Source: a virus. From it: a stretch of 32,706 bases of DNA. The stretch spans positions 1 through 32,706 of the IMG/VR virus record IMGVR_UViG_3300037247_000451; one strand, 5' to 3'. A model generated the notes under the pieces. It was not told the DNA's origin, did no database searches, and worked only from the letters and a program-made list of their open reading frames with translations. The translations under genes and the position numbers were made by a program. This document shows, in pieces, positions 13,838 to 29,699 of this stretch (position 1 is the stretch's first letter; each line of letters begins with the position of its first letter).

Positions 13838-14181
13838 TACTCCTCCTCCAATGACTCAGAGGCAGCAGCGAGCGAAGTTTCCATTTCAGGATCTAGCTCG
13901 ACCATGAACTCGGATAGCTCGCCCCAATCGAGATCGACATCATCGAAGGCGAACGGCGGGTTATCCCAATCAGGAGACCCGTCGGCCAAAGCACGAATCA
14001 GATTGACGTAGAGGATCGCTTTGGCCGCAGCGATGACCCACTCGCCGTCACCAAGACGGGCGAGGGCATCCGCCCCGCACAGGTTGATAACCCTCGCCAC
14101 GTCAAGAGGATCAGTAAGGGCAAGCCCTACATCGATCCGACGAGTCTCCCCGTCGGCCTCTATGTCAAGAACCAACTCCAT
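13837..14181 (-). CDS. Tail assembly chaperone
   Basis: The acidic 114-residue protein lies between the major tail genes and the tape measure gene, the invariant place for tail assembly chaperones. It has an N-terminal beta part (MELVLDIEADGETRRIDVGL), a central helical part with VARVINLCGADALARLGDGE, and an acidic C-terminus (LAAASESLEEE). Most siphoviruses make a longer form by ribosomal frameshift; here the tape measure start overlaps the stop codon, leaving no separate downstream frame for one. Confidence 0.75.
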   Translation of the reverse strand: MELVLDIEADGETRRIDVGLALTDPLDVARVINLCGADALARLGDGEWVIAAAKAILYVNLIRALADGSPDWDNPPFAFDDVDLDWGELSEFMVELDPEMETSLAAASESLEEE

Positions 14182-14187
14182 TCGGCA

Positions 14188-14595
14188 TCATGCCCAAGTG
14201 GGTACGACACCAGTTGCCAGCACGCCAGGCGCCGAGAACGTAAACGACCCATCACCGGCACGAGTCAAGGCGTAATCGGTGAACAGGTATTCACCGGGCA
14301 ATGTCTGACTGGACACGGTGAGTGTGACAGTACGGACCACCGAAGTAGAGGGGACTGTCTTAAACACATCGTGAGACTGGTCGGCTGCGGGGTTGAAGAC
14401 TCCGTTGAGGTCCACCGAGGCATCCGCCAAAAGCAGCAACCTCTCCATTGCCGACTTGTCGATACCGGTCACATCCTGTACCCCACGAGGGGTCGAAATC
14501 GAGATGTTGGTGAAGTCGTTTTTGATGGTCTTGGGGGCTCCTGCTGAGTCGTCTACTGTGGCTGCCGTCCAGCCTAAGCCTGTTTCCTTTGCCAT
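14188..14595 (-). CDS. Second, shorter major-tail-like protein
   Basis: The 135-residue product shares a diagnostic segment with the 253-residue tail protein at 15056-15817: VTGIDKSAMERLLLLADASV here against VTGIDKSAVERLGGKRDGGM there, then FNPAADQSHDVFKTVPS against FNVATDQAHPTLSTLPT. It lacks the C-terminal extension of about 110 residues. It is therefore a paralogue, perhaps a tail-tube subunit or minor variant. A ribosome-binding site AAAGGAG precedes the ATG. Confidence 0.75.
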   Translation of the reverse strand: MAKETGLGWTAATVDDSAGAPKTIKNDFTNISISTPRGVQDVTGIDKSAMERLLLLADASVDLNGVFNPAADQSHDVFKTVPSTSVVRTVTLTVSSQTLPGEYLFTDYALTRAGDGSFTFSAPGVLATGVVPTWA

Positions 14596-14608
14596 TTCTG
14601 GCTCCTTT

Positions 14609-15055
14609 CTATTGTCGTCTTGCTAGTTGATCTTGGTGCTCACCGAAGTCGTTGACCCATGAGTCAGGCGACCCGTGAGTGAACCGTTCCCCGATCCGTT
14701 GCCGCCAGTCGCCTCGCTGCACCATGAAGAACGCCTCACGGTCCAACGGGATACGATGGGCTTCATCACCAGACGAGAAACAGGTCTGACCGGCTCCGAA
14801 GGTGAACTCGGTGATGCCGTGTTCGTTGAACGTCTCGGTGAATCCTCGGCCTGACTCCCGACGGATGTAGTACGCCTGAGCTTGTCCCTTGTCGTCTGAT
14901 TCGTCAACGAAGGTCTGCCATCCGCTGATATGAGCCTGGCATTCGACCTCCTCACAGGTCGCTTTGCGCCAGTGGGTCGCCATCGGACGGGCAATCTCGT
15001 AGGTCTTGTATGCAGAGATCGGGCCTTGAGGCTGGATGCGGTTGAGAGGTTTCAT
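14609..15055 (-). CDS. Conserved phage protein between the two tail proteins (148 aa)
   Basis: The product starts MKPLNRIQPQGPISAYKTYE and includes MATHWRKATCEEVECQAHIS, a Cys pair with His and Trp, and then GITEFTFGAGQTCFSSGDEA. It resembles a conserved family of actinophage proteins in the tail region with a HWR-ATCEEVEC signature; I know no function for it. Four Cys residues could bind metal. It starts directly after the stop of the longer tail gene. Confidence 0.65.
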   Translation of the reverse strand: MKPLNRIQPQGPISAYKTYEIARPMATHWRKATCEEVECQAHISGWQTFVDESDDKGQAQAYYIRRESGRGFTETFNEHGITEFTFGAGQTCFSSGDEAHRIPLDREAFFMVQRGDWRQRIGERFTHGSPDSWVNDFGEHQDQLARRQ

Positions 15056-15817
15056 CTAAAAGACCACGCTCGTCTCGTTCTTCACTACTTGCACAGCGAA
15101 CACCAGATCAGAGAACCCGCCCGACGTGGTGGTGCTAACCCGGAGGTAACGGTCCACGGTCTCGGTACGAGATGCCGTCTGTATCCGCTCTGCTTTGTTG
15201 GCCCCACCAAGAACCGACACTTCGGTGAATGACATCAGGGTCACCGCCGAGAAATCAGAGGTGGAGTCCTCGATGGTGATGGTGGCGTCGGCGCCGGTGA
15301 AAGCGAAGACGTGCAGATAAGCCTGCGCGCCGAACAAGGTCTGACCGATGGTCGCCCCGTAATCCAAGGTGGCCCCGGCGGTGGCTCCTGTGTCGGTGCG
15401 TTTGCCAACTGTCAGCGACTCGCCCCATTCCAGACCAAAACCGTTGGCGAGAGCCTGAGTGGTGAACGTCAGCGACCCGTCGTTGCCCCGTGTCCCGTCG
15501 TAGTCGATCTGTTTGCCGATCAATGATGCCACCTCATCGCCGATCGCCGTCGTCCGGTGGTAGTAGGTGACGATTCGATCGGCGGTAGGCAAGGTGGATA
15601 GCGTTGGATGAGCCTGGTCAGTGGCGACATTGAAGAACGCTTGAAACGACATGCCGCCATCTCTTTTGCCACCGAGCCGTTCTACTGCCGACTTGTCGAT
15701 ACCGGTCACAATGAGAGGCGATGGCCCCCCCTTGATGCCGTCCATCTGTCCAATGTCGCCAGAGAGGTCAGTGCCCGAAACGTAGAGAGCGGCACCAAGG
15801 CCAGATGACTTAACCAT
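15056..15817 (-). CDS. Major tail protein with C-terminal extension
   Basis: The 253-residue product has a tail-tube domain in its first about 140 residues (GLGAALYVSGTDLSGDIGQM, then the VTGIDKSAVERL segment and LTFTTQALANGFGLEWGESL). A C-terminal domain of about 110 residues is beta-rich (GADATITIEDSTSDFSAVTL, then DRYLRVSTTTSGGFSD), such as an immunoglobulin-like or carbohydrate-binding decoration. Its position after the tail terminator and before the chaperone and tape measure agrees. A second related gene follows nearby. Confidence 0.8.
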   Translation of the reverse strand: MVKSSGLGAALYVSGTDLSGDIGQMDGIKGGPSPLIVTGIDKSAVERLGGKRDGGMSFQAFFNVATDQAHPTLSTLPTADRIVTYYHRTTAIGDEVASLIGKQIDYDGTRGNDGSLTFTTQALANGFGLEWGESLTVGKRTDTGATAGATLDYGATIGQTLFGAQAYLHVFAFTGADATITIEDSTSDFSAVTLMSFTEVSVLGGANKAERIQTASRTETVDRYLRVSTTTSGGFSDLVFAVQVVKNETSVVF

Positions 15818-15966
15818 CAGATTCCCTTCTGTCGGTTGACTCGCTCACCGCGAGTGTCGTGGATCTTCTTGATGATCTTGTCTTTGTCGAACCGACCTAC
15901 AGAGACACGAAGCGACTCAGCGTAGGCCACCCATTTCTTCTTACTGTCTGTTGGTTTGGGTTGCAT
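15817..15966 (-). CDS. Small SAP-like protein with a WVAYAESL motif (49 aa)
   Basis: A 49-codon frame has a perfect AGGAGG six bases before its ATG and ends in a TGATG overlap with the major tail gene. It encodes KKKWVAYAESLRVSVGRFDK then DKIIKKIHDTRGERV. The WVAYA-SL segment followed by a short loop and K-IIKKI helix resembles a SAP- or Rho-N-like helix-extended-loop-helix, and matches the C-terminal end of the gene at 20591-20788. Role is unknown; it could help assemble the head-tail region. Confidence 0.7.
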   Translation of the reverse strand: MQPKPTDSKKKWVAYAESLRVSVGRFDKDKIIKKIHDTRGERVNRQKGI

Positions 15967-15976
15967 ATCAGTCCTC

Positions 15977-16435
15977 CTATGGAGCCTGAGTGAACACGTC
16001 GTTGACGATTATCGGGATGGTGATATCCATCGAGCGGTACATGGTCTGGTCGATGGTGATGTAACCAGCTCGTGCTGATAGCGCCTCACCGGTCATGCCC
16101 AACAGATCGATGTTGCGGACGTTGCCACCGAGCTCGAAGTCGCCGGAGAAGGCTTCCATAAGAGTATCGGTGGCGGCGATGATGGTGGGGTCAATCAATC
16201 CCTGTGGTTCCTGAAACCCTGGCAGGTAGATTCTCGCCATGATGGTCAAAACACCGGCAGATGTAGCCAGACCGCTTCCGGTGGGGACGGGTCCGAGCGT
16301 GGAAACATAGATCGCACAGTGAAGGTTGCCGCCAGGAGCCGACTTCGGTTCGTGAGTATTGACCGAATCAAATAGCCCCGATGCCTTGGCGTGGGACTCG
16401 ATGGCATTGAATAGGGTTTGCGCTCCGAAGGCCAT
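15977..16435 (-). CDS. Probable tail terminator protein (152 aa)
   Basis: The protein starts MAFGAQTLFNAIESHAKASG, then FDSVNTHEPKSAPGGNLHCA, a beta core ending in ITIPIIVNDVF. The pattern of N-terminal helix, beta strand, and a long loop before paired strands is that of gpU/tail terminator proteins. Its position between the head-tail completion gene and the major tail gene agrees. It starts in a TGATG overlap with the upstream gene. Confidence 0.65.
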   Translation of the reverse strand: MAFGAQTLFNAIESHAKASGLFDSVNTHEPKSAPGGNLHCAIYVSTLGPVPTGSGLATSAGVLTIMARIYLPGFQEPQGLIDPTIIAATDTLMEAFSGDFELGGNVRNIDLLGMTGEALSARAGYITIDQTMYRSMDITIPIIVNDVFTQAP

Positions 16436-16848
16436 CAGTCACCCAACTTATGTATCAGTTGGCGAAAGGTTGAAATCACGGTCTGGTGAGCCAACTTCTC
16501 CATGCGTTGGGAGGCTTTGCGCCAGTGTGTGTAGCCCTTGAACCTGGTCACCGGAGCGTTGCGAGAGCCGGTGCCAGCTAACCAGGGACCGTAGATCACA
16601 CCAGAGTCATGGACTACCACATCAGGAAGGGTTCGACCCACACCAGATCGTACCGTCGATGAAATCTGAGAACGGTAGAACCCGGTCGGGTTTTGGAGTA
16701 CCACGTCGAGCTCCTGTTGAACAGCATCCTCGGCCAAGTTGGCAATCAATGCCAGGTTGGCCTTCATGTACTCATCGAGGATTATCGGTGCTCGACCTTC
16801 CAGTAATGGACCGGAGAATTCGACCAGTTCATGTGTTCCTGCTGCCAT
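16435..16848 (-). CDS. Head-tail joining (HK97 gp10-like) protein (137 aa)
   Basis: The 137-residue product has an N-terminal helix (ANLALIANLAEDAVQQELDV), a core with NPTGFYRSQISSTV and VVHDSGVIYGPWLAGTGSRN, and a C-terminal helix (RKASQRMEKLAHQTVI). This is the usual order of HK97 gp10-like neck proteins. It follows the connector gene by two bases. The role would be closing the head-tail interface. Confidence 0.65.
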   Translation of the reverse strand: MAAGTHELVEFSGPLLEGRAPIILDEYMKANLALIANLAEDAVQQELDVVLQNPTGFYRSQISSTVRSGVGRTLPDVVVHDSGVIYGPWLAGTGSRNAPVTRFKGYTHWRKASQRMEKLAHQTVISTFRQLIHKLGD

Positions 16849-16850
16849 GA

Positions 16851-17861
16851 CTACACCGCCACCAGGCGACGCCGCTTGTAGATGCCGGCCATCTTGCGGG
16901 CATCCTTGAGGCCTGCGCCACTGGCCTCACGTTGCCCCTCACCAGAGCCTACGGTACGACCGTAGGCCGACTGCTCCTGCTGGAACAGGACCAAGGCTTC
17001 AGCGATGCACAGGCTGGTGATCGGTGCCGGTGGGGCGTTCTTGGTGAGGGCAGCAGCATTGGAGTGAGTGGCGGCAGTGGTGCCGACCGATCCACGTTCT
17101 ACGGTCAACCTGCGTGGGGCCCATACGTTGATCCCGGTGGAATGAGCGGCCAGAGTGGAGCCGTCCCAGGCTCGCTTCACGGTGAGGTCGTTGGACGAGA
17201 TCGAGATGGTCTTCATCCGTTCCGAATCCAAGGTGAGAACTTCACCAGCTTTGACCTGAGTGGCATCGTCCAGGGTCACCGTCTCGTCAGAGACATCGGC
17301 GGTCAGGGTGTCGTTGAGGTCGGCGGTAGTGTCCAGTAGGACTGCCTCGGTTACCACCATTTGCTCAGAGTCGGCAAGGATCATGTCACCGGGTCCGACC
17401 AGCGATGAGTCGGTGACATCAACTTCGGTCTCGGATGTGTCGAGGGCTTCGGCTAAGGCACCTGCTGGAGTGGTGTCAGCGGAGTACCCCCATACCCCAG
17501 TGAGGACTATGGTCTGACCCGTTAGCGAAACCCATGAGTAGGGAGATCCATATTGTGGGGGCCACAGGTCGATATCACCCACGGTCTGCGATGCGTCGTC
17601 CACTGTGGCCGCGGTCAGGGAACGTAGGTCTCGTTCCATGAAGAACCCTGAGCCGTACCCGGAGGCAATGACTGACAACTCAGGTGACTCAAAAGTGACG
17701 GCTTCGGTGAGAGGGTAGAAGTGGCGGTGATAGGTCTGGTCAATGCCACGAGAAGCAGATTGCAGGATACGGTCGATGGTCGCCGACAGGTTTGCGGGAG
17801 TATGAATATCCGCAGCAGTCATAAACGCCTGACGAGAGACGTAAGTAGGCAGCACCATCAT
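16851..17861 (-). CDS. Head-tail connector protein with internally repeated insert
   Basis: The product (336 aa from ATG 17861; ATG 17858 is equally good, behind AAGGA) starts with helices (SRQAFMTAADIHTPANLSAT, then ILQSASRGIDQTYHRHFYP) typical of gp6-like connectors. It ends with a helix-rich segment (ITSLCIAEALVLFQQEQSAY) that such proteins keep. Between them lie about 130 extra residues with two related units (VDVTDSSLVGPGDMILADSE and VTLDDATQVKAGEVLTLDSE), making a beta-rich insert. A motif shared with the portal and protease genes lies 37 bases upstream. Confidence 0.7.
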   Translation of the reverse strand: MMVLPTYVSRQAFMTAADIHTPANLSATIDRILQSASRGIDQTYHRHFYPLTEAVTFESPELSVIASGYGSGFFMERDLRSLTAATVDDASQTVGDIDLWPPQYGSPYSWVSLTGQTIVLTGVWGYSADTTPAGALAEALDTSETEVDVTDSSLVGPGDMILADSEQMVVTEAVLLDTTADLNDTLTADVSDETVTLDDATQVKAGEVLTLDSERMKTISISSNDLTVKRAWDGSTLAAHSTGINVWAPRRLTVERGSVGTTAATHSNAAALTKNAPPAPITSLCIAEALVLFQQEQSAYGRTVGSGEGQREASGAGLKDARKMAGIYKRRRLVAV

Positions 17862-17897
17862 CAATCCTTGCTTTCTCGGATCTGCTTATCGACTTAG

Positions 17898-17917
17898 ACC
17901 TTACCAGAATTTGGCAG
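17898..17917 (-). promoter_or_regulatory. Recurring late motif, copy 3 (upstream of connector)
   Basis: CTGCCAAATTCTGGTAAGGT (minus strand) in the 65-base gap between the LamG-like gene and the connector gene. It matches the copies upstream of protease and portal with one inserted base. It may be a late promoter with TAAGGT as the -10 box, or an operator. Confidence 0.55.
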
Positions 17918-17926
17918 AGGAAGGAA

Positions 17927-18613
17927 CTATATGATGCCGAGCAGTAGCGGATCTCGCCAAGTTTGGAGTTCCAAACCGGCTTGGGCCACCTCAGCGGGTG
18001 TGAGGGCCGGTGGCCGCCAGAGGACCACATCGAAAACATCAACAGCGGAATAGTTGCCGGGGCTGCTCGACGCCCCAATATTCAAGGTGAGGGCGTTAGC
18101 GAGGGTGACTGTTGTCGCGTCAGTAGTCGGCGATCCCGAACCTACTCCATCAACGAACACTTCGATGTCGTCGTCGCCCGTGTTCCGCACACCAGCGGCA
18201 ACAAATATCACGTCATTGATAAGAGATGCGCCTTTGGCGTCATTGGATGACACAGCCCCGTCAGCAATCCGGAAGTTCATGGTACCAGTGGTGGCTAGCA
18301 TGATGTTATAACCCGCTCCTGCACCGGTTGTCCCTAATTTCTTCGCTAACAGAATGGAGTCGCTAGCCGGAGTCACGTCCGCAGTCCTAGCTCTCACCAT
18401 CACCGTCAGGTCGTCAGTTTCGGCGAAGTCGAGACCAGCAGCGTCAGCAACAGTGAAATGGTCGGTCCCATTAAGAGTGAAATAGGTATCGTTGAAGGTG
18501 GGCGAACTGACCGGGGTGGCATCGTGGCCGTTGCCCGACTCGTCCAGCCAGTTACCCGATCCCGAATAGTTCTTTGCCCGTAGCAGCAGCTCGCCGCGGC
18601 CGATGACGCTCAC
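17927..18613 (-). CDS. LamG/concanavalin-like jelly-roll protein
   Basis: This 228-residue protein has the pattern of a LamG-type domain: NWLDESGNGHDATPVSSPTF, then YFTLNGTDHFTVADAAGLDF, LTVMVRARTADVT, the glycine-rich GYNIMLATTGTMNFRIADGA, FVDGVGSGS and the closing VDVFDVVLWRPPALTPAE. Such domains bind carbohydrates or proteins. The start is a GTG that overlaps the stop of the beta-helix gene (GTGA). It is the last gene of the cassette between capsid and connector, so it is probably a virion decoration or adhesin. Confidence 0.8.
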   Translation of the reverse strand: MSVIGRGELLLRAKNYSGSGNWLDESGNGHDATPVSSPTFNDTYFTLNGTDHFTVADAAGLDFAETDDLTVMVRARTADVTPASDSILLAKKLGTTGAGAGYNIMLATTGTMNFRIADGAVSSNDAKGASLINDVIFVAAGVRNTGDDDIEVFVDGVGSGSPTTDATTVTLANALTLNIGASSSPGNYSAVDVFDVVLWRPPALTPAEVAQAGLELQTWRDPLLLGII

Positions 18614-19422
18614 AGATAAATGCCCTCGCTGAAGTGAGTGACCTGACCCCCAAGATCGATGGTGTCAGGACCCGCATCTTTGAACACAGCGTTGCTGAGG
18701 TCGAGACCATCTACTGGTCCGACCGCTTTGATGACAACATGAGGATCTGATCCGACCTGCCACGCACCGTAAGTACCAGCGAACCGGAAGCCATATCCTT
18801 CGATTTCAAACCCGGTGCCGTGTCCAACATCGCCGTGCCATACTTGGAAAGTGACCGAGCGAAGCGGGTCCGTATGTCCCGGGCTGAGACGCAACACCTG
18901 ATCCAGTCCGGCGTTGGATTGGGGATCGCCGGTCGACGGCCCGATGTTGCCCTGGACGTACCAGGCGTTGCCGGCGTCCATGATGTGAGTCCGATTCCGC
19001 CACCAGAGGCAACGGTGAAAAGAGGCTGTATTGCAGAACGATCCCGGTCGTCGGCCCTGTACTCCGACAAGATTGCGGACTATGTGAACGTCGGTCAAGG
19101 CGGGGATTTCCGCGGCGTCCAGGTCAACACCGAGAGCAGTGGCGTTGAATTCAGAGATGCCACCCACATACACGTTATGGATTTGAGGGAACAGCACACC
19201 ACGAGCGTCGATGAGTGTGCCTGTAAATTGCGGCTCGCCGTCGGCTTTCCAATGCCGCACCTGCACATCCTTCAATTGCGACCGATCAGAGAACGTGATG
19301 AATGACCCGTCCAGCGTCGTCGGGAACAGTCGAGTTTGGCCTACTCCCGCGCCCCGGTAGGTACGTTCCGGGTCAAGGGTGAATGGATCAAGATAATGAT
19401 CCCCAGATCCCCAATCAGTCAT
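18610..19422 (-). CDS. Beta-helix-like structural protein (270 aa)
   Basis: The ATG at 19422 has GGAGA just upstream. The product starts MTDWGSGDHYLDPF and then has a tailspike-like PERTYRGAGVGQTRLFPTTL, followed by repeated short strands with V-V-N and G-E patterns (VYVGGISEFNATALGVDLDA, then FEIEGYGFRFAGTYGAWQV). This looks like a right-handed parallel beta-helix of pectate-lyase type. No catalytic pair is evident, and the helix is short. It is probably a glycan-binding or glycan-degrading virion part. Confidence 0.65.
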   Translation of the reverse strand: MTDWGSGDHYLDPFTLDPERTYRGAGVGQTRLFPTTLDGSFITFSDRSQLKDVQVRHWKADGEPQFTGTLIDARGVLFPQIHNVYVGGISEFNATALGVDLDAAEIPALTDVHIVRNLVGVQGRRPGSFCNTASFHRCLWWRNRTHIMDAGNAWYVQGNIGPSTGDPQSNAGLDQVLRLSPGHTDPLRSVTFQVWHGDVGHGTGFEIEGYGFRFAGTYGAWQVGSDPHVVIKAVGPVDGLDLSNAVFKDAGPDTIDLGGQVTHFSEGIYL

Positions 19423-19462
19423 GATTCTCCTCACTTTCCAAGCCGTTTCGCGGATGCGCCAC

Positions 19463-19822
19463 CTACTTTCCCCAAGCGACAAAGAGGACGATTTGTCCTA
19501 CCTTGGCATCTCCCGCATTAGCAATGGTCACCGTACAGGTGCCTTCGTGATAGACGTGTGTGGTGGCTAGACCACCAGCCAATAACACATGCTCGGTGTT
19601 GGTGTCATCCCGGTCGGCTCCCTGACCGTTGAGAAGGTCGAGTCCGAATTCGTCTATCACTGTCACGTCGTAGTTGTCGTCGGGAGCGGTGGCACCAGGG
19701 TCGGTGATGAGACGAACGATCACTCCATCAATCTCAACTGACTGGGTGGCATCTCCCGAGGACGATGTCCAGTCAACGGTGATCCTGCGTAGTTTGTTGG
19801 AACCTCCGTATGTAACAGCCAT
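19463..19822 (-). CDS. Conserved virion-associated protein (119 aa)
   Basis: The protein is beta-rich: KLRRITVDWTSSSGDATQSV, then IVRLITDPGATAPDDNYDVT, VIDEFGLDLLNGQGADRDDT and a closing strand set ending FVAWGK. The DPG-APDDNYDV-V-DE-G-D-LNG-GA-R segment is a signature I associate with small structural proteins of tailed phages. It belongs to the capsid-adjacent cassette. Its precise place in the virion is unknown. Confidence 0.65.
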   Translation of the reverse strand: MAVTYGGSNKLRRITVDWTSSSGDATQSVEIDGVIVRLITDPGATAPDDNYDVTVIDEFGLDLLNGQGADRDDTNTEHVLLAGGLATTHVYHEGTCTVTIANAGDAKVGQIVLFVAWGK

Positions 19823-19825
19823 CAG

Positions 19826-20050
19826 CTAATCCTTTGGTAGATTGGGTGAACGGTAGTGCTTGGCTCCCCAACGTGGACAATTCCAGACTTTTCCATTGGT
19901 CTCCAGCACTTCGCCACAGACCGGACAGTCAACCCGATCCTGCGGCTTGAGTCGTCCATCGATAACGGCCTGCAAAGAATCCCACCCGCCGGTGACCAAG
20001 GTGGTACCACCAAATCCTTGGGAGAACCCGGAGGAGAATCCGCCGCTCAT
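19826..20050 (-). CDS. Zinc-ribbon protein with glycine-rich N-terminus (74 aa)
   Basis: The N-terminal 16 residues are Gly/Ser/Phe rich (MSGGFSSGFSQGFGG). The C-terminal half has CPVCGEVLETNGKVWNCPRW followed by GAKHY, a zinc ribbon with C-x2-C ... C-x5-H spacing. It overlaps the upstream gene by ATGA. A zinc ribbon inside a structural cassette is odd; it may stabilise a virion protein or be an assembly factor. Confidence 0.7.
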   Translation of the reverse strand: MSGGFSSGFSQGFGGTTLVTGGWDSLQAVIDGRLKPQDRVDCPVCGEVLETNGKVWNCPRWGAKHYRSPNLPKD

Positions 20051-20598
20051 GTCGGCATCGTCATCGCTTGGATATTGGCTACTTCAAGGGTCACATTGTT
20101 GGAACCAGTGGCGTTCCGCACCCACAAGCTCAGGTAGTCGCCAGTGGAGAGTGTGGTGACCAGATGGAGTGCAGTCGAACCAACGTCGGCGCCAGTTCCG
20201 ATCTTGCGTTGTACTTCCGACGCCTCATCAGTGGTCCCGGTTTTCCCGATCCGCCAGTGTGTCACCTGATTGTTCGAGCCAGAGGTCATCGAAATGGTGC
20301 AGGCGACATGCATCACAAGCGGCACGATGCCGGTATAAGTGAGACGTCCATCCCCGCCGGACTCATCAAAGAAGTGTGCCCCTGATGATAGGGTCCATGT
20401 CGGGTTTGTCGCTTCAAAATAGGAGGATGTGTCGGAGATAGTGATGGCGGCAGCATCACCTGCGGCGACATAGATTTGACCATGACCGTTTCGCCATGAC
20501 ACAAAGGCATCCCGAATGTCCTGTTCGCTGATCTGCCCGTTGGAGTTGTCGGTAAGCAGGGCGAGGATCGCCGAAACAGAGCGCTGCGTGTCAGCCAT
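20047..20598 (-). CDS. Virion appendage protein with jelly-roll-like end (183 aa)
   Basis: The N-terminus RSVSAILALLTDNSNGQISE then QDIRDAFVSW is a motif typical of the start of phage tail-fibre or appendage proteins. The rest is beta-rich and ends LVTTLSTGDYLSLWVRNATG followed by SNNVTLEVANIQAMTM, a layout like C1q/TNF-type jelly-rolls of phage appendages. Placed beside capsid genes rather than tail genes. A capsid fibre or trimeric decoration protein is a reasonable inference. Confidence 0.7.
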   Translation of the reverse strand: MADTQRSVSAILALLTDNSNGQISEQDIRDAFVSWRNGHGQIYVAAGDAAAITISDTSSYFEATNPTWTLSSGAHFFDESGGDGRLTYTGIVPLVMHVACTISMTSGSNNQVTHWRIGKTGTTDEASEVQRKIGTGADVGSTALHLVTTLSTGDYLSLWVRNATGSNNVTLEVANIQAMTMPT

Positions 20599-20788
20599 TG
20601 GTCACCCTGGCGATGATCTGGCCTTTGGTACCGGTAGCATCCACCCCAAGAGACTTGGCGTAGGCCACCCACACTGATTTGAGCGCCGACCGCGGCGGCG
20701 GTACCTCGGGCTCAGGCGCTCGTGGTGGTACCTGAGCCACGATATCGAAGCGGCTGGTAGGTGCTCGGAGGCGGTGAATCTTCGGCAT
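20591..20788 (-). CDS. Small protein with C-terminal SAP-like motif (65 aa)
   Basis: The N-terminal part is Pro/Arg rich (VPPRAPEPEVPPPRSALK). The C-terminus, SVWVAYAKSLGVDATGTKGQ then IIARV, is a helix-extended-loop-helix of SAP-like type, also seen in many phage head proteins. It is clearly similar to the 49-residue protein at 15817-15966. The start overlaps the upstream paralogue by TGATG. It may tether another virion protein to the head. Confidence 0.65.
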   Translation of the reverse strand: MPKIHRLRAPTSRFDIVAQVPPRAPEPEVPPPRSALKSVWVAYAKSLGVDATGTKGQIIARVTNG

Positions 20789-21231
20789 CAGGTTGTGTTA
20801 TCGGTAGCAGCGGTGAAGTACATCTCGGACCATTGCGACCCATCGTAGACCAGAATGAGTGTCCCTCCCGGGGCCACCGCCCGTTGTGCCGCCGCCAGGT
20901 TGATAACGTCATCATCGAAGGTGATGGTGTTCGTCGCCGGGATGTGAATGAACAGAACATCTCCGGCCTGTACTCCGGACATGACAATCGAATCCACCTG
21001 ATCGGCAGCATCCGTTTCAGGCTGAGGGTCCACGAACGAACCGGTCACAGTGAGCACACCGGTGGCGATGGTCGGAGTAGTCAACGGGCTGAATCCAAAG
21101 AACTTATCGATCTGAACTCGGTTATCTGCTGGGTCGAAGGTCAGTAGATCGACGTTGTTGGACTTGGATCGAAAGGCCAATGCACCAACCGAACTGATCT
21201 TGGAACCGACCAGGCTGTTGAACCGTCCCAT
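20788..21231 (-). CDS. Tandem paralogue B, small virion-like protein (147 aa)
   Basis: It is closely related to its neighbour at 21231-21671 along the whole length: VGSKISSVGALAFRSKSNNV, FDPADNRVQIDKFFGF, LTTPTIATGVLTVTGSFVDP, PATNTITFDD, INLAAA and VAPGG are identical or nearly so. The two stand in a direct tandem with a TAATG overlap. The sequence is beta-rich and resembles small phage structural proteins. It may be a capsid decoration subunit; two copies could form a hetero-oligomer. Confidence 0.7.
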   Translation of the reverse strand: MGRFNSLVGSKISSVGALAFRSKSNNVDLLTFDPADNRVQIDKFFGFSPLTTPTIATGVLTVTGSFVDPQPETDAADQVDSIVMSGVQAGDVLFIHIPATNTITFDDDVINLAAAQRAVAPGGTLILVYDGSQWSEMYFTAATDNTT

Positions 21232-21671
21232 TAGGTGTTATCAGTGGCAGCAGTGAAGAACATTTCCGACCACTGAGTACCGTCGTACACCAGGAGGATT
21301 GAACCTCCTGGAGCCACAGCTCGTGTCGCCGCCGCCAGGTTGATAGAAGCGTCATCAAAGGTGATGGTATTGGTGGCCGGGACATGGATAAACAGCAGGT
21401 CACCAACCTGGACCCCGGACATAGAAATGGAGTCCACCGTGTCGGTAGTGCTGGTCTGTGGCTGAGGGTCGACAAAAGACCCGGTCACAGTGAGCACACC
21501 GGTGGCGATGGTCGGAGTAGTCAGGGTGCCGAATCCGAAGAACTTGTCGATCTGGACCCGATTGTCTGCTGGGTCGAATTGGAGAAGGTCAACGCTATTG
21601 GTCTTGGACCGGAATGCTAGGGCCCCAACTGAGCTGATCTTGCTTCCGACTCTGCTTACAAATCTTCCCAT
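21231..21671 (-). CDS. Tandem paralogue A, small virion-like protein (146 aa)
   Basis: The first copy of the tandem pair; differences from copy B lie mostly at the N-terminus (MGRFVSRVG here, MGRFNSLVG there) and in the middle after SFVDPQP (TSTTDTVDSISMSGVQVGD here against TDAADQVDSIVMSGVQAGD). The last strands (VYDGTQWSEMFFTAATDN) are conserved. A ribosome-binding site precedes the ATG at 21671 (GGAGTG). Role as for copy B. Confidence 0.7.
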   Translation of the reverse strand: MGRFVSRVGSKISSVGALAFRSKTNSVDLLQFDPADNRVQIDKFFGFGTLTTPTIATGVLTVTGSFVDPQPQTSTTDTVDSISMSGVQVGDLLFIHVPATNTITFDDASINLAAATRAVAPGGSILLVYDGTQWSEMFFTAATDNT

Positions 21672-21743
21672 GTTTCACTCCTTGTTCCAGGTGAGTGGTA
21701 GGCCGGAGCCAGGGGGCAACCCCGACCTATCCGTTGCTGTGGT

Positions 21744-22250
21744 TTACGCGTTTGGCTGCACCAGGTTCTGTGGACTTCTCTGCACCTTGAGGTTGTGCAT
21801 GATGGCAAAGACACAGCCGATGTGGGCGGTGCTGAGTGAAGCGACATCAACCGACACCCATTCGTAGCCATCGCTCAACTGCTCGGCGCGAACTTTGAAC
21901 GCCACGATCACCTGATTGGCGTCGTCCCAAGTGGCGTCGGTGACTTCCGATGCTGCGGTCTGAGTGACCCGTGTCCAGGTCTCGTCACCATCGAGGATGG
22001 CTTCCTCTTTCTTCCAGTACTCATCGATGATGTCGAGGTCTTGAGAGGTCCCACCGGTCAGGGCGTTTGCCTCTTTCAGGTCAAAGACCGGATTCTCCGC
22101 ACTGGTGCCGGTTGTTATGTAGCCGACAAAGGTGACCGCTCCGTAGTTCTTCAGGTGGATTCGGTGGCCGGTGTTGGTCCCGTCTGCAATGTCGACGGGA
22201 ACGATTACCGATCCGATGTCGAAGTTGGCTCCGAGTCCTAGATTGCTCAT
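21744..22250 (-). CDS. Virion-like protein directly after the capsid gene (168 aa)
   Basis: The product starts MSNLGLGANFDIGSVIVPVD and is beta-rich (RIHLKNYGAVTFVGYITTGT), then more helical (DEYWKKEEAILDGDETWTRV), ending ETWTRV, VIVAFKV and CVFAIMHNLKV. Such proteins often follow the major capsid gene in siphoviruses and are usually abundant structural or decoration proteins. AAAGGA lies eight bases before the ATG. The family is not identified. Confidence 0.6.
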   Translation of the reverse strand: MSNLGLGANFDIGSVIVPVDIADGTNTGHRIHLKNYGAVTFVGYITTGTSAENPVFDLKEANALTGGTSQDLDIIDEYWKKEEAILDGDETWTRVTQTAASEVTDATWDDANQVIVAFKVRAEQLSDGYEWVSVDVASLSTAHIGCVFAIMHNLKVQRSPQNLVQPNA

Positions 22251-22295
22251 GTTCTATTCCTTTCTGAGAGGGTGTTAATGCCCCCAGGGTTTCGA

Positions 22296-22334
22296 GGGTG
22301 GCGGGGTCCCCGTTAACCGGGTCTGCCGCCACCC
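22296..22334 (-). terminator. Stem-loop between major capsid gene and downstream cassette
   Basis: On the minus strand GGGTGGCGG pairs perfectly with CCGCCACCC across a 21-base loop that itself contains CCCG-GTTAA-CGGG. No U-run follows, so it may act as a partial terminator or an RNA stability element controlling capsid to cassette ratio. Confidence 0.55.
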
Positions 22335-22350
22335 ACTAGGTTGTCAATTG

Positions 22351-23847
22351 TTAGGCAGCAAGGCTCACAACTGGCGAGATTGTGTCCCCATTCACCGGCG
22401 TCAATGCACTCTGAATCCACGGTCTGCCATCGACACGTTCGATGATCCGGAGCTCGAACTCGTCCTGCATGAAGCGGGAGTGCGGGCTGGTGTCCATCGA
22501 CACTGCCTGGCGATCACCGAGAAGGTAGTAACCGAAGTCAAGGAAGTTGACGTCCTGTGCCGAACCCAATGCAGCCACCTTCTCGGTGATGATGATGGGA
22601 CGACCCAGCAATGACATGAACGGTGTATCGCCGATCTGTTGGATGAGACCAATGGCGGAACCGCCAGTGCCAACATCGATGGTCAGCGACAGCAGTTGCG
22701 GTAGCGTCGTCTGGTTCACCACCCATACCGCCGAGCCGAGCGACTGTGGCAGCATCCGGGCGTACATGTTGAAGATGTCCGCCGAGTTGACCTGCGACCC
22801 GGTATCACGGGTCACCGCGATATCCGCAGCAGAACCGACAAACCCGAGGGGTTCGCCTACACCTGATCCAGTGAGGAAAGCCTGATCCTCATAGTGGGCC
22901 AGACCCTGCGGGACTGCCATGTTGAGCCACGACCCAAGAGCCGGAGCGTCGCTCAAAAGCTCGTTGGGAATGCGGGCACCACCGGTCAGCTTGTTGGCTT
23001 CAAGACGGACCCTGCCGAACTTGGCTTCAGTTGACTGGATCGTTCCCGACTCCTCAGTCCAGTAGAAGATCATCCCACCGAACAGCGACCCGGAATGAGT
23101 AGTCACATCGACGTAAGGAATGTCCAGAGTCTTTGATGTCAGGGTGATAACCGAGGCACGGCTCCGGACCACCGACTGCTCCAAAGCAAGCTGGAGAATC
23201 TCAGAGCGTAGCGTCTCCGGAATCAGGAACCCGGCCGCTCCGGGATCGTCCGAGGCGTACTGCGCTTGGACCTTGCGAAGCTGGTCGAACATCACAGTCT
23301 CGTCGTCATTGAGCGTCTGAGATGTGATGGTGCCTTTCATCACCAACTGAGCGAGCTGGCCGACGCTGTTGACATCGATGTGATCGCCACGAGCACCGGG
23401 AGCCAACGGGTTGTACATCGCTGACGCCTTGCCACCGTTGGCAATGGCAGTCGGAACCAGTTTGGCTACATCAGCCTTTGACGGCAGGTCGGTGATACCG
23501 TATTCCTTGAGTTCCTTGGTCAACTCGGCGAACAGTTGCTCTGCAACCTGCTTGGCGATGGCGTCACCCTTATTGGTCATCTTCTGATACGCGTTGAGCA
23601 CTTCCTTGGAAAGCTCACCATCGGCAAACGCCTTGACCCGCCACTCATCGTCGGCGAGCGCCTCGGCGAAAGCCTCCGGCGTGTCGGGAATGGTCAGCGT
23701 GTCGCCGTCGCCATCACCGTCTCCATCGTTGAAGGTCATCCCGTGATAGCGGTCACGCAGCGTTGCCACAGCGTTGCTGTACGGCGAGGTGTGAGGCTTG
23801 GCCGGATCGCCAAGGTAGGGGTACGAGAGGGTTCGTTTCGGTGTCAT
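22351..23847 (-). CDS. HK97-type major capsid protein with N-terminal scaffold
   Basis: The 498-residue product has an N-terminal part of about 150 residues rich in charged helices (AEQLFAELTKELKEYGITD), as in HK97 delta/scaffold domains. From residue 200 onward it is an HK97 capsid: GAAGFLIPETLRSEILQLAL, then LEANKLTGGARIPNELLSDA, SGVGEPLGFVG, ADIFNMYARMLPQSLGSAVW and FGYYLLGDRQAVSMDTSPHS. Residues 41-49 are a DGDGDGDGD run. It overlaps the protease gene (ATGA), and the protease probably removes the scaffold domain. Confidence 0.92.
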   Translation of the reverse strand: MTPKRTLSYPYLGDPAKPHTSPYSNAVATLRDRYHGMTFNDGDGDGDGDTLTIPDTPEAFAEALADDEWRVKAFADGELSKEVLNAYQKMTNKGDAIAKQVAEQLFAELTKELKEYGITDLPSKADVAKLVPTAIANGGKASAMYNPLAPGARGDHIDVNSVGQLAQLVMKGTITSQTLNDDETVMFDQLRKVQAQYASDDPGAAGFLIPETLRSEILQLALEQSVVRSRASVITLTSKTLDIPYVDVTTHSGSLFGGMIFYWTEESGTIQSTEAKFGRVRLEANKLTGGARIPNELLSDAPALGSWLNMAVPQGLAHYEDQAFLTGSGVGEPLGFVGSAADIAVTRDTGSQVNSADIFNMYARMLPQSLGSAVWVVNQTTLPQLLSLTIDVGTGGSAIGLIQQIGDTPFMSLLGRPIIITEKVAALGSAQDVNFLDFGYYLLGDRQAVSMDTSPHSRFMQDEFELRIIERVDGRPWIQSALTPVNGDTISPVVSLAA

Positions 23848-24578
23848 ACAGACTCCTTGATAGGGGACGACCACTCGAAATCATCGGGGTCGGTGTTGAA
23901 CAGGTCAGCGAAATCAGTAGGTGCGGCGGTGACAGGCTCGGGTGCCTTGGCATCAGTCTTGGTCTTAGGTGTGACCACCTCGTCGGCGAGACCCTCCGAA
24001 ACCGTCTCCTTAGCGGAAAACCAGGTGCCCATATTGGAGGCACCGGCACGCATCAGGGTGAGGAAGTGAGCCTTGGATCGTCCGTCGCCTTTGCGCTTGG
24101 CGTAGATCTCGGCGATCTTGGTGGTCTGGTTATCGAGGATCTCAGCGAGTTCCCGCATATCAGCAGCAGTGGCACCAACAGCAATACCGGTAGCATCGTG
24201 GATCATCATCTCCGTAGAGTCCAACATGATTCGATGGTCGCCGGCCTGAACGATCACCGACGCAATCGAGGCAGCAATGGAATCCACTTGAGTAATGATC
24301 TCAGCGGGGTGGGCTCGAAGGGCGTTGAATATGGCGATACCCTCGAACACCGAACCGCCTAGTGAATTGATCCGAACATTGATCTTTTCGGCGGTGATGT
24401 CTTTCAGTTCGTTTACCAGCTCGTCGGCGCTGGCTCCATACCAGGCGATGTCATCGTAGATGTAGACAGTCGCCTCATCATCGGCTTTGTCTTTGATCTC
24501 ATACCAGTTGTCACGGGTGACGATGCCCGCCTTGTTAACAAGCTGAGAGAAGGCTTCCCTATCCCGCAGGAATTCCAT
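23844..24578 (-). CDS. ClpP-like prohead maturation protease
   Basis: The 244-residue protein is a ClpP/crotonase-fold S14-type head protease: an NSLGGSV oxyanion loop at 71-77, DSIAASIASVIVQAGDHR with catalytic Ser104, MMIHDATG with His127, and an Asp candidate in LDNQTTKIAEIYAK (Asp149). The C-terminal 50 residues are acidic and Pro/Ala rich. The ATG at 24578 follows a gap holding a shared promoter-like motif. It would cut the scaffold domain of the capsid protein encoded next. Confidence 0.9.
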   Translation of the reverse strand: MEFLRDREAFSQLVNKAGIVTRDNWYEIKDKADDEATVYIYDDIAWYGASADELVNELKDITAEKINVRINSLGGSVFEGIAIFNALRAHPAEIITQVDSIAASIASVIVQAGDHRIMLDSTEMMIHDATGIAVGATAADMRELAEILDNQTTKIAEIYAKRKGDGRSKAHFLTLMRAGASNMGTWFSAKETVSEGLADEVVTPKTKTDAKAPEPVTAAPTDFADLFNTDPDDFEWSSPIKESV

Positions 24579-24585
24579 AGAAAGT

Positions 24586-24604
24586 ACCTTACAGGATTTG
24601 GCAG
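24586..24604 (-). promoter_or_regulatory. Recurring late motif, copy 2 (upstream of protease)
   Basis: CTGCCAAATCCTGTAAGGT on the minus strand, in the 50-base gap between portal and protease. TTGAAG (24614-24609) stands 17 bases upstream of TAAGGT (24591-24586), the expected spacing for a -35/-10 pair. AAGGTAC occurs twice, 21 bases apart, in the same gap. Confidence 0.6.
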
Positions 24605-24628
24605 GTACCTTCAACCTCTTGTAGAGGG

Positions 24629-25891
24629 TTAGGCTTGGCCTCCGTCGGAATCCCCGTCGTCCCCTTCTGGTTCTCTTTCGGGAGCGTCGGGCCGACCGAC
24701 CCAAGGAATAGGCGGGAATCCGAATGATTCCAACACGCCGGCAGGGTCAAATCCTTCCCTCACGAATGAAGCGGCAGACAATGACCTAGCTCTCAAGGAT
24801 TGACGTTCCTCTTCGGCATCGCCAGGAACGGGCGAATCATAATCGAACTCGTAGCCTTCACCCAAGCCCCCGAATTTAGGCAGCAGCTTGGTGTTGAGTA
24901 GCTTCTTCCACCGTTCCAGACGGGGTACCATGATCCGTTCGGCAAATACCGCCCGCTGGGCAAAGGCATTGGCTCGGTTGACATCTTCGACGTGGCCGAG
25001 CATTGCTTTGGAGATCCGCCATGCCTCCATCATCGCCTCACGGCTGAAGTTGCGCAGGTCAACGAACTCCATGTCACGCTGTGACATCTTGCGCTCACTG
25101 AACTTGCCCATCTCCATGACCGCGATCCGGTGAGCGTTAGACACTCCCTGATGCTGCGACCGCCATCGAGCCGTCCATGCTTCCCACTCCTGATCTGAGA
25201 GCAAGGTCTCCCGATCCAGTTCGAGAACACCACCAGGAACCGCTCCGTTGATGAAGAAGTTGAAGTTGTAGGCAGCGGCGGCTCGCTCGCCTTCGATGTC
25301 CATCATCAGCGACGCAATCGGGGAGAGTCCACGCCACGGATCGAGCGGGTTCTGTCGCTTCTCGAAAATCACCTGATTGAGTTCAAGGGGGATCTTCTCA
25401 CCGCCGATGGAGTAGACATAACCGGAAAGGAATGACTCACGAGACTTCACCGGAGCCATCCGGTCGGGTCGCACCGGCCACATATCGGTAACACCAGACA
25501 GTCGGCCCATCGTCTTGGTTTCGAGGACGGTCCACATCTCGCCGGTCAGCTCGTAATGCTGTTGCTCGGCCTCGATGAACTCATCTTGTGAGTAGATGGT
25601 TTGACCATCCACGGTGGCCGGGTTCTCCCACACCACTAGGGCAGGATGATCGAAGACTTCGACACGTTCCGCCTCGGGTCTGCCCGGTTGGCGGTAAAGA
25701 TGCCAGTCAACCCCAGCGACGGAGGTGGCGATCAGATCAGAAATGGAGAACAGAGTCGCTACCCGCTCCATCTGTGAAAGCTGGTCTGTTTTACTGGCGG
25801 TGACACCACCTGATGCCAGATCAAAGGAGCGACCGCGGGCGGTGTGAGGAACAGGGGAACGGTTGGCGAGGGTCTGCAATGGGCCGGCCAT
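24629..25891 (-). CDS. Portal protein (HK97 family)
   Basis: The 420-residue product shows the HK97 portal family order: SDLIATSVAGVDWHLYR near residue 50, then WPVRPDRMAPVKSRESFLSG, LNQVIFEKRQNPLDPWRGLS, FFINGAVPGGVLELDRE, the DVNRANAFAQRAVFAERIM helix and FDYDSPVPGDAEEERQSLRA near the C-terminus. The tail is acidic (EREPEGDDGDSDGGQA). The ring would form the DNA entry point of the head. The ATG at 25891 lies just after a conserved motif. Confidence 0.92.
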   Translation of the reverse strand: MAGPLQTLANRSPVPHTARGRSFDLASGGVTASKTDQLSQMERVATLFSISDLIATSVAGVDWHLYRQPGRPEAERVEVFDHPALVVWENPATVDGQTIYSQDEFIEAEQQHYELTGEMWTVLETKTMGRLSGVTDMWPVRPDRMAPVKSRESFLSGYVYSIGGEKIPLELNQVIFEKRQNPLDPWRGLSPIASLMMDIEGERAAAAYNFNFFINGAVPGGVLELDRETLLSDQEWEAWTARWRSQHQGVSNAHRIAVMEMGKFSERKMSQRDMEFVDLRNFSREAMMEAWRISKAMLGHVEDVNRANAFAQRAVFAERIMVPRLERWKKLLNTKLLPKFGGLGEGYEFDYDSPVPGDAEEERQSLRARSLSAASFVREGFDPAGVLESFGFPPIPWVGRPDAPEREPEGDDGDSDGGQA

Positions 25892-25898
25892 GCCCTCT

Positions 25899-25917
25899 AC
25901 CTTACAAGATTTACCAG
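25899..25917 (-). promoter_or_regulatory. Recurring late motif, copy 1 (upstream of portal)
   Basis: CTGGTAAATCTTGTAAGGT on the minus strand, ending seven bases before the portal ATG. It aligns without gaps to the protease copy (16 of 19 identical by eye). TAAGGT may serve both as a -10 element and, here, as a ribosome-binding region (AAGG). Confidence 0.55.
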
Positions 25918-25919
25918 TC

Positions 25920-26183
25920 TCATGTACGTCTACCCAACGCTACCAGCCAAGCAGCACCCAACCCGGCGCCACCAGCAACATAAGCCCCGGCTATCGGATG
26001 GATGATCCAAGTGGCCGTAATCACCACCACCACGCCGACCGTGGCCAACACTTCCGGCAGGTTTGCGAAAAGAAACCGACCTAATGGACGGCGCCATGCG
26101 GTGACACGACGGACACCACGACGAGTGACGACCAGGATCTCGGGTGTGGCCTGGCGGATCTGAGACCAGGGGGATTTAGACAT
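25920..26183 (-). CDS. Membrane protein with basic N-terminus (87 aa)
   Basis: The product starts MSKSPWSQIRQATPEILVVT, continues with a run of Arg residues (RRGVRRVTAWRRPLGRFL) and has two hydrophobic segments, about residues 45-60 (LATVGVVVVITATWII) and 64-82 (AGAYVAGGAGLGAAWLVAL). The start overlaps the methyltransferase end by eight bases. No family is recognised. A membrane link of the packaging stage, or superinfection control, are speculative. Confidence 0.65.
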   Translation of the reverse strand: MSKSPWSQIRQATPEILVVTRRGVRRVTAWRRPLGRFLFANLPEVLATVGVVVVITATWIIHPIAGAYVAGGAGLGAAWLVALGRRT

Positions 26184-27636
26184 GGACTTCGAGGAACAGT
26201 GGACCGACACGGTCTCGGGCTAGTTCGGCGGATCGTTCGTCGATGTCGATGCCGATGGCATCTCTGCCGTGGCCGTGGGCTACTGCGAGAGTCGTCCCGG
26301 TCCCCGCAAATGGATCAAGCACGAGGCCGGGGCGGTAGTTGTCGTGACCACAGTCCGACCAGACGTCAGGCGCGTGGCGGTCTTTGCGTGCTGGTAGTCG
26401 GTTGTAGATCCGTCCGGTGGCGTCTTGGGTGGTGCCGCTTGGGTGGTCGTTGATGTGTTCGTATTCGATCAGTGACCGGTTTTCATATATGAGAGGGTCG
26501 AAAGTCTCAGATACTCCGATGGCGTCCTTCAGTATTTCCCAGTCTTGGGGGGTTGGGATGTTCTTCCCTCGTTCCCAATTGCTGAGCTGGGCTGTGATGC
26601 TGTCGCCGTTCTTGTAATGAGGTAATAGGGGGATGAAGTCGGCGCGTGTCATGCCAGCCTTCTCCCGTTGCGCTTCGATGTGTTCCGCTAACCCGTCGAA
26701 GTTTTGAGCGTTGGATACGATGCGTCGTCGTGGTTCCCCACACTCCCGGCACACCTCTTTGGGGCACATCGCTTTTATCGGTTTGACACACAGTTCGGAC
26801 GGCCAGACCGCGTAGTGGGCGCCTGCGTATCCTTTGGGGCTGATTTTCCACCAGTCGAGCGGCGGCGCACCGGCAGGATTCATCAGGCCGTTACTTGGTA
26901 GTTCATCCCATCCGTGACTTGGGTTATGGCTCACACGAGGGGCTTGGAGGTGTGCCTCTTTCTTGGGTGGTTCTCTAACTGCGTCCAGATCGAACCACCG
27001 GTCCTTCGACGTGGCAGCCACCACCAGTTCGGAGGTAGCAGGACGGAACTTGTCGCCGAGAGCTCCGACCGGCGGGTTGGGTCGCACCCACCGGATGACG
27101 TTGCGTATCCGCCATTGCCCCGCGGGGGAGGGTTGGCCGGTGTGGGGGTTGATGCCGTAGGCGAGAGCGAAACGATAGGCTTCGGGGATGAGGGTGAGGG
27201 ATTTAGCCAGAGGCCAACCAGGACCGCCGCCTTGAACCTTGTTGTTCCGATTCTGTATTGGTGGGCCAATGGCAGAGTCGTGCACGCGTTGGTGTTTCAT
27301 AGAGCCATCAAAAGGTTCTTGACTCTCACGCCAACCGCCAGCCGTGTAGTCGCTTCCCGCCCCTCCACTACCAGCAAACGTGTCACCTAACTCGACAACT
27401 AGCGACCCATGCGGTGCCAAAAGTCGTCGCCATTCGGCGGTCAACCTCAACATCACGTCGATGTATTCGGCGGGGGTGGCTTCCGACCCGATCTCCTTGT
27501 CCTTGTCGGGGTGGTCGCTGGGCAGATAAGAACGGAGGGCGAGGAAGGGGGGACTGGTCAAGACGAGATCAACCGATTCATCATCGAGTTCGGCCATACG
27601 GGTGAACACGTCGCCGATGAGGTATTGGACGGTCAT
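26176..27636 (-). CDS. DNA methyltransferase with inserted XRE-like helix-turn-helix
   Basis: The 486-residue protein has motif IV first (LTSPPF, residues 26-31) and the AdoMet-binding motif I last (DPFAGTGTT, 441-449, then IGIDIDE), the order of beta-class N6-adenine or N4-cytosine methylases. Between them are PNPPV at 187-191, typical VVAATSKDRWFDLDAVRE, and a Cys set CPKEVCRECG (C291, C296, C299) with another Cys at 429. Residues about 312-376 form a helix-turn-helix of XRE type (LAEHIEAQREKAGMT, then AQLSNWERGKNIPTPQDWEI). The start overlaps the previous gene by ATGA. It probably protects phage DNA from restriction. Confidence 0.88.
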   Translation of the reverse strand: MTVQYLIGDVFTRMAELDDESVDLVLTSPPFLALRSYLPSDHPDKDKEIGSEATPAEYIDVMLRLTAEWRRLLAPHGSLVVELGDTFAGSGGAGSDYTAGGWRESQEPFDGSMKHQRVHDSAIGPPIQNRNNKVQGGGPGWPLAKSLTLIPEAYRFALAYGINPHTGQPSPAGQWRIRNVIRWVRPNPPVGALGDKFRPATSELVVAATSKDRWFDLDAVREPPKKEAHLQAPRVSHNPSHGWDELPSNGLMNPAGAPPLDWWKISPKGYAGAHYAVWPSELCVKPIKAMCPKEVCRECGEPRRRIVSNAQNFDGLAEHIEAQREKAGMTRADFIPLLPHYKNGDSITAQLSNWERGKNIPTPQDWEILKDAIGVSETFDPLIYENRSLIEYEHINDHPSGTTQDATGRIYNRLPARKDRHAPDVWSDCGHDNYRPGLVLDPFAGTGTTLAVAHGHGRDAIGIDIDERSAELARDRVGPLFLEVHV

Positions 27637-27773
27637 CGGTTCAACCATCGGCGCAGCCACCGAGGCCACTTGTATTTAGCCAGGAGGGCGGGATGAGGTA
27701 CGCCCCCCGCTTCCTCAATGCAGTCACCGTCACAATAGAATCTGAGACTGGTGGAAGAGATTTTCAAACTCAC
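27633..27773 (-). CDS. CxxxC miniprotein between terminase and methyltransferase (46 aa)
   Basis: The frame starts at a GTG overlapping the terminase stop (GTGA) and ends overlapping the methyltransferase start (ATGA), so both junctions support translation. It encodes SLRFYCDGDCIEEAGGVPHP and a Trp/Arg/Lys-rich C-terminus (KYKWPRWLRRWLNR), which is amphipathic and basic. It may bind metal or nucleic acid. Function is unknown. Confidence 0.65.
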   Translation of the reverse strand: MSLKISSTSLRFYCDGDCIEEAGGVPHPALLAKYKWPRWLRRWLNR

Positions 27774-29457: not shown

Positions 29458-29699
29458 TGGTGTAGGTATAACCGGATGCGATTGCCATAGGTTCTATTAG
29501 ACATCAACTGCAATAAGGGTGCTGAATCACCCCGTACCGCTTGCAGTAAAACATGGTGAATGTGCTGTGGCTGATGACGGTGTTTCCATCGCCAGTAACG
29601 GACTAGCCGCCATTGCGACGGCATCATCATCCAGGAAATAGTTTTAGCCTTGACCAGCCACCATTCCTCGACGTCGTTCATAGTCATATATAAGCTCAT
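29454..29699 (-). CDS. Hypothetical basic protein (81 aa)
   Basis: This Trp/His/Arg-rich protein starts MSLYMTMNDVEEWWLVKAKT and includes RLVRYWRWKHRHQPQHIHHV. It is positively charged in the middle and may touch nucleic acid. The start and the end both form ATGA overlaps. I recognise no family. Confidence 0.6.
   Translation of the reverse strand: MSLYMTMNDVEEWWLVKAKTISWMMMPSQWRLVRYWRWKHRHQPQHIHHVLLQAVRGDSAPLLQLMSNRTYGNRIRLYLHQ

Follow-up and report, generated by a model that had tools for sequence, protein, structure and literature searches.

A variable gene slot between the capsid and connector genes in siphophages of actinobacteria, a candidate locus for head-surface proteins

Phage attachment is usually ascribed to tail proteins, and head fibres and decoration proteins are already known. 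The head spikes of the Rhodobacter capsulatus gene transfer agent (RcGTA) consist of a jelly-roll base (Rcc01079) and a fibre that binds capsule polysaccharide (Rcc01080), and these spikes bind the capsule reversibly, with the tail engaging afterwards (PMC7296036). The phi29 head fibre gp8.5, T4 Hoc, T5 pb10 and SPP1 gp12 are thought to bind carbohydrates and to help adsorption (PMC7602432). In actinobacteriophages, gp15 and gp29 of Patience and gp17 of Rosebush are capsid accessory proteins, and one of them, a large protrusion, has been suggested to help in host recognition (PMC7150772). Here we analysed a virus record of 32,706 nucleotides (IMG/VR record IMGVR_UViG_3300037247_000451; this whole 32.7-kb stretch is called the window), in which nine closely spaced open reading frames (ORFs) on the minus strand separate the major capsid gene (22351-23874) from a connector-like gene (16851-17864). 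With moderate confidence, we take this interval, hereafter the slot, to be a conserved locus of exchangeable content at which a group of siphophages, with actinobacteria as hosts wherever these are known, encodes head-surface proteins, with a putative function in adhesion from the capsid side.

From the capsid side, the nine genes are w168, w146, w147, w65, w183, w74, w119, w270 and w228. The nearest isolated phage that we found, Streptomyces phage Dagobah, is a siphovirus by transmission electron microscopy (PMC7650747). Its entire head-to-tail module (MT711977) is collinear with the window, and its genes 11-15 occupy the slot. Homologues of w168, of the N-terminus of w146 and w147, and of w74 are found there, but the Dagobah slot is only 1.7 kb long, contains five small genes and has no LamG or w183-like protein. 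The capsid proteins of the two are 39% identical, and the connector-like protein is 38% identical to the product of Dagobah gene 16.

Recurrence and turnover of the slot

Scanning with the capsid profile yielded 80 viral loci, and another scan yielded 35 loci in genomes, mostly from Streptomyces and other actinobacteria. The survey set consisted of the 74 loci (viral contigs and prophages, mainly of Streptomyces; individual loci are given L numbers) where both the capsid protein and the connector protein have a homologue; these are the window and no fewer than 73 further sequences of related phages or prophages, with Streptomyces and its kin as hosts where the host is known. The capsid-connector block recurs with variable content in all of them. 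The slot is 925 to 5477 bp long (median 2091, standard deviation 1101), whereas the neighbouring intervals vary far less (standard deviation 165 from the connector to w152, and 148 for the next one). At 4487 bp, the slot of the window ranks only 6th by length, and the idea that its nine genes are a freak was rejected. The preliminary description of this DNA had taken none or one or two genes to be usual at this place, but the slots of this family hold 1-8 called genes (median 4), numbers that are approximate and tend to be low because the simple purpose-written caller used for the kin missed w74 when applied to the window.

Single-linkage BLAST grouping placed the slot proteins in 62 clusters. 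All 74 slots have a member of the w168 family, which is the first core gene behind the capsid gene. A second family of about 155 amino acids (aa) occurs in 54 loci and is absent from the window, SAP-like proteins occur in 37, and the family of the w74 knuckle in 30. The variable slot genes mostly differ between phages with capsid proteins at least 80% identical, in pairs that are not independent of each other, and the slot is therefore a hot spot at which gene exchange is concentrated. The capsid proteins of L046 and L104, for instance, are 95% identical, yet one slot encodes a 288-aa fibre-like protein and the other a 157-aa SAP/knuckle protein.

Some pairs also differ on the connector side. 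The capsid proteins of L028 and L049 are 98% identical, compared with 60% for their connectors, and because connectors diverge more than capsids in such pairs, the slot lies at a recombination joint between modules. This fits the main rival explanation, in which the variable genes encode tail or neck fibres and spikes collected at a permissive junction of the head and tail modules, and only w168 is a capsid protein. Matches of slot proteins to PHROGs named tail protein or tail fibre also favour it; together with virion structural protein, these names make up most of the PHROG matches (the others include polysaccharide deacetylase and endonuclease VII). On the other hand, candidate tail-side proteins are also encoded where such genes usually lie, both in the window (w418, w386, w244, w170 and one with collagen repeats) and in Dagobah, where the tape measure is followed by a carbohydrate-binding protein of 1278 aa. 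The w183 domain, moreover, stays adjacent to the capsid gene in podoviruses and siphoviruses whose capsid proteins are unrelated. These points weigh against the tail or neck fibre explanation, and we regard it as unlikely, though a serious competitor.

Domains and attachment modules of the slot proteins

The constant gene, w168 (21744-22250), encodes a protein predicted by AlphaFold from 55 sequences to be all beta (predicted local distance difference test, pLDDT, 92.4; predicted template modelling score 0.89). Among models of viral proteins, its best fold match is an uncharacterised 160-aa protein of an uncultured phage (E 9.8e-10, template modelling score 0.71-0.74), and other matches include the ends of collagen-type fibres. 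Fold matches in the PDB were weak (Foldseek, best E 1.4e-3) and include Ena pilins, EphA receptor domains and a CBM22; the jelly-roll microvirus spike protein G was likewise a weak match (E about 5e-3). Homologues of w168 are found in Dagobah (29% identity, E 1e-9) and in the metagenomic phage L005 (47% identity). A role as a capsid decoration or base protein is likely for w168. In the more distant kin L006-L008, a small beta protein that can be loosely aligned with w168 also follows the capsid gene.

Most of the longer variable slot proteins that have a recognisable domain are lectin-like, fibre or polysaccharide-active. Pfam searches found Laminin_G_3 in slot proteins of L027, L038, L091 and L108 (best E 1.6e-20), DUF4082 in L005, and polysaccharide deacetylase domains encoded between the capsid and connector genes of L051 (10313-11884) and L127 (3718-5100). 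Further Pfam matches of variable slot proteins were to the Gp80 fibre family, the K1-lyase C-terminal domain, Rho_N and, weakly, hyaluronidase (HylP), and phrog_3758, which is annotated as head and packaging, matches slot proteins of L005 and L036. Sugar-active virion enzymes, such as the two deacetylases, are not usually encoded between capsid and connector.

The last gene of the window slot, w228 (17927-18613), had been described as LamG-like. The protein itself has no Laminin_G_3 match in Pfam even at E 10, but it matches phrog_8510 (E 8.5e-8) over the same profile stretch as the Laminin_G_3 domain of L091, and it is 36% identical to a protein of L002 within the latter's Laminin_G_3 domain. 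The LamG (concanavalin A-like) assignment is supported in this way by transitive homology. An AlphaFold model built from two sequences only had a pLDDT of 30, and hhalign comparison of w228 with the LamG proteins of kin, which were poorly aligned, gave no result. A second IMG/VR contig, of a different length, is identical to the window across their overlap; apart from it, a scan of close relatives with w228 found L002 only, and scans with w183 and w146 found nothing. The searches of PDB sequences with w168, w228 and w183 and the tblastn searches of phages with w146, w228 and w270 gave no match, and nothing useful came from NCBIfam.

Several slot proteins are fusions of parts that are separate in other slots. 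LamG, linker and knuckle form a single protein in L038 and L108, DUF4082 is joined through a linker to a w74-like knuckle in a 314-aa protein of L005, and the DISxQD N-terminus of w183 is attached to another C-terminal part in L036. These fusions suggest that a few reusable attachment modules bear exchangeable binding domains, and it is presumably through such modules that the proteins attach to the virion. N-terminal and other motifs were screened across the ORFs of the loci by simple patterns only. The knuckle protein w74 (19826-20050) had been described as a glycine-rich zinc ribbon. Its N-terminus is rich in glycine, but the number of Cys is three, and two Cys and an Asp are the rule in most of the family of 30. 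Four ligands in two CxxC-type knuckles are not present, and a canonical zinc ribbon was rejected; judged from these residues, w74 is probably a degenerate knuckle rather than a standard four-ligand zinc ribbon.

The tandem duplicated pair noted in the preliminary description corresponds to w146 (21231-21671) and w147 (20788-21231), whose products are 84% identical. Most of their synonymous sites differ, and with 0.11 nonsynonymous (dN) and 1.6 synonymous (dS) substitutions per site (dN/dS about 0.07), both copies are maintained by purifying selection. Each has a depolymerase-C-like beta domain (Phage_depo_C, E 1.5e-4 for w146 and 7.6e-4 for w147, both under the curated Pfam cut-off). A homologue of w146 is present in the slot of L097, and the N-terminal GALxFR motif of w146 is common with Dagobah gene 13.

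The protein w183 (20047-20598) combines a DISxQD-type N-terminal motif with a C-terminal domain known from capsid-adjacent proteins of marine phages. A jelly-roll-like end had been described for w183; it has homologues, and the jelly-roll is a putative fold. This domain is encoded between the capsid and adaptor genes in Pseudoalteromonas phages HS1 and H105/1, Roseobacter phage CRP-5 and Vibrio phage 1.015.O, and near the capsid genes in Pseudoalteromonas phage H103. Through CRP-5, the family reaches SIO1 and the Methylophilales phage MEP401, whose member is also placed between the capsid and adaptor genes. In Ruegeria phage Tedan, the N-terminus recurs in a protein encoded between the capsid gene and a gp10-like gene, and a related protein is found in the Flavobacterium elemo phages. 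As a separate observation on SIO1 gp29, CRP-5 gp45 and their Zobellviridae kin (L014 and L019-L025), most of the Zobellviridae examined, though not the Klebsiella citrovirus, have between their capsid and adaptor genes a gene with a common N-terminus. The C-terminus differs in several of them, and the product looks like a head appendage that has so far gone unrecognised.

Three further slot proteins are less well characterised. The small SAP/Rho-N-like w65 (20591-20788) gave weak matches to SAP_new25 (E 0.0095, below the cut-off), phrog_12035 (4.5e-5) and phrog_2322 (1.3e-3), and has homologues in the slots of L034-L037. A 49-aa SAP/Rho-N-like protein with the same KxxWVAYAxSL motif as w65 is encoded among the tail genes (15817-15966). 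The small protein w119 (19463-19822), of unknown function, has homologues in the slots of L028, L049, L088, L091 and L108 (E 1.5e-8 to 3.2e-10). For w270 (18610-19422) a beta-helix had been suspected by eye only, and searches of families and phages gave neither a homologue nor a match to pectate-lyase-like repeats.

Coding potential, stem-loop and flanking genes

With codon scores trained on the core phage genes of the window, all nine ORFs score positive in frame, seven of them within the range of the core genes. The scores of the two shortest, w65 and w74, are weak, with a wrong frame slightly higher, and both have homologues in kin. For w270, a 290-aa ORF starting with TTG at 19482 had been proposed earlier; the ATG at 19422 is preceded by a GTGAGGAG ribosome site and gives 270 aa, and is the more likely start on these sequence features. 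Misassembly or spurious ORFs as the origin of the nine genes have practically no chance of being right, and nothing was found in favour of this explanation. It is contradicted by codon scores, ribosome sites and dN/dS, by the identical contig of different length and by synteny in kin, and was ruled out.

Directly after the capsid gene, the gap at 22251-22350 contains a 9-bp perfect GC-rich stem without a T-run, in agreement with the stem-loop noted before. Of 64 kin, 42 likewise have a perfect stem in this gap that no more than one in 20 shuffles equalled, and since it recurs at the same place, the stem-loop is probably functional; perhaps it lowers expression downstream of the capsid gene or protects the capsid mRNA. 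A second stem-like sequence lies in 21672-21743. The recurring promoter-like motif that had also been noted was not borne out, as only 2 sigma-70-like sites were seen in 14000-30500 against 6.7 expected, which is below chance, and no convincing common intergenic word was found in the window and its kin.

The genes around the slot have the order of a head-to-tail module. On the minus strand, terminase (phrog_2), a DNA methyltransferase, portal, a ClpP-type protease and the HK97-type capsid protein (phrog_10 major head protein, E 1.2e-44) precede the nine small genes. Behind these come the connector-like gene and a gp10/Neck1-like gene, then small tail genes, two tail-tube-like genes, the tape measure and the distal tail genes. 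The connector-like protein, which has no family match, is named from its position and the gene order. The DNA methyltransferase gene (26176-27669) has the terminase on one side and the portal on the other. The collagen repeats encoded at 7486-8337 stand behind an N-terminus that looks peptidase-like by eye. The two tail-tube-like proteins (15056-15817 and 14188-14595) are paralogous (38% identity across 99 aa) and are matched in Dagobah genes 18 and 20; two tube-type proteins may be in use by many phages of this group.

Head-side attachment and comparison with known systems

If the slot is a locus for head-surface proteins, its constant gene, w168, would encode an all-beta protein that decorates the capsid or forms a base on it, and the other genes would encode accessory head appendages swapped between phages. 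Several of these appendages may be glycan-binding or fibre proteins, namely w228 with its LamG domain and w183, w146 and w147 with fibre-tip-like beta domains. The Cys knuckle of w74, the DISxQD N-terminus of w183 and the GALxFR N-terminus of w146 and w147 would probably attach proteins to the virion. The most likely use would be a weak, multivalent binding of the head to polysaccharide of the cell surface or the environment, after which the tail would meet its receptor, as with the RcGTA spikes. More tentatively, and at somewhat less than even chances, the slot may be a dedicated hypervariable head-side adhesion locus, with a universal base of the w168 family and interchangeable lectin, fibre and polysaccharide-cleaving modules on reusable anchors, evolving apart from the tail receptor-binding proteins.

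The preliminary description of a capsid-decorating adhesion cassette is partly supported. It was right on the place and broadly right on the kind of protein, which agrees with a conserved hypervariable slot holding lectin, fibre and deacetylase proteins and with a w183 domain that is capsid-adjacent elsewhere, but it exaggerated the rarity of nine genes, and some of its fold calls, such as the beta-helix and the canonical zinc ribbon, found no support. Location on the capsid and glycan binding are what we infer from these data, and binding to mucus, as had been proposed, is not a natural guess for phages whose kin are largely of Streptomyces.

It could also be that accessory genes of several kinds (decoration proteins, endonucleases, sugar-modifying enzymes) land in the slot without a common function, and that adhesion-like domains have come together there by chance. 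Endonuclease VII in one slot (L082, Pfam) and glycosyltransferase- and methyltransferase-like genes (by eye) in the same interval of L006-L008, all of which are clearly not adhesins, would agree with this, as would the many small slot proteins of unknown function. We regard a mixed landing site as quite improbable, given the lectin-like, fibre or polysaccharide-active character of most longer domain-bearing proteins and the recurrence of anchor-like modules among slot proteins. The endonuclease and the transferase-like genes nevertheless weigh against a head-surface locus as well, together with several other points. Klebsiella phage KpnP_VR7901 encodes its relative of the CRP-5 N-terminus close to the lysis genes, away from the capsid gene. 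For w168, no PDB fold match was found at E < 1e-3 (Foldseek), and no PDB sequence match, hence none to a solved decoration protein. The orphan w270 has no match in Pfam or the phage searches, and gene position alone does not prove location in the virion.

Should the head-surface reading be true, a large and mostly unstudied group of phages would have on the capsid a second layer for binding that evolves separately and in some of them includes sugar-cutting enzymes, and the head as well as the tail may help these viruses stick to their surroundings or hosts. It would offer functional hypotheses for more than 60 groups of mostly hypothetical proteins and named anchor modules usable for display on actinophage capsids.

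We found no publication describing a conserved hypervariable multi-gene slot for head proteins in actinobacterial siphophages, in a search that left subscription journals mostly outside. The decoration proteins of Patience and Rosebush are likened to the slot proteins by description only, and the portion of that account at hand describes no variable multi-gene locus (PMC7150772). SIO1 gp29, CRP-5 gp45, HS1 gp11 and H105/1 gp30 resemble w183 in the C-terminal domain (SIO1 gp29 via CRP-5) and adjoin the capsid gene, before the adaptor gene where this is annotated. They differ from the slot in being encoded by a single gene rather than a cassette and in belonging to other capsid families and hosts. 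No sequence link to RcGTA was found, its base is not among the 50 Foldseek matches listed for w168, and no ORF of the loci starts with the (I/L)-G (Leu-Gly) base-binding repeat of the RcGTA fibre in the simple pattern screen; nevertheless, its base protein with a separate fibre is a plausible functional model for w168 and the variable appendages. No homology of slot proteins to phi29 gp8.5, Hoc, pb10 or SPP1 gp12 was detected, and whereas these are single genes, the slot comprises one constant gene and up to eight genes with swapped domains.

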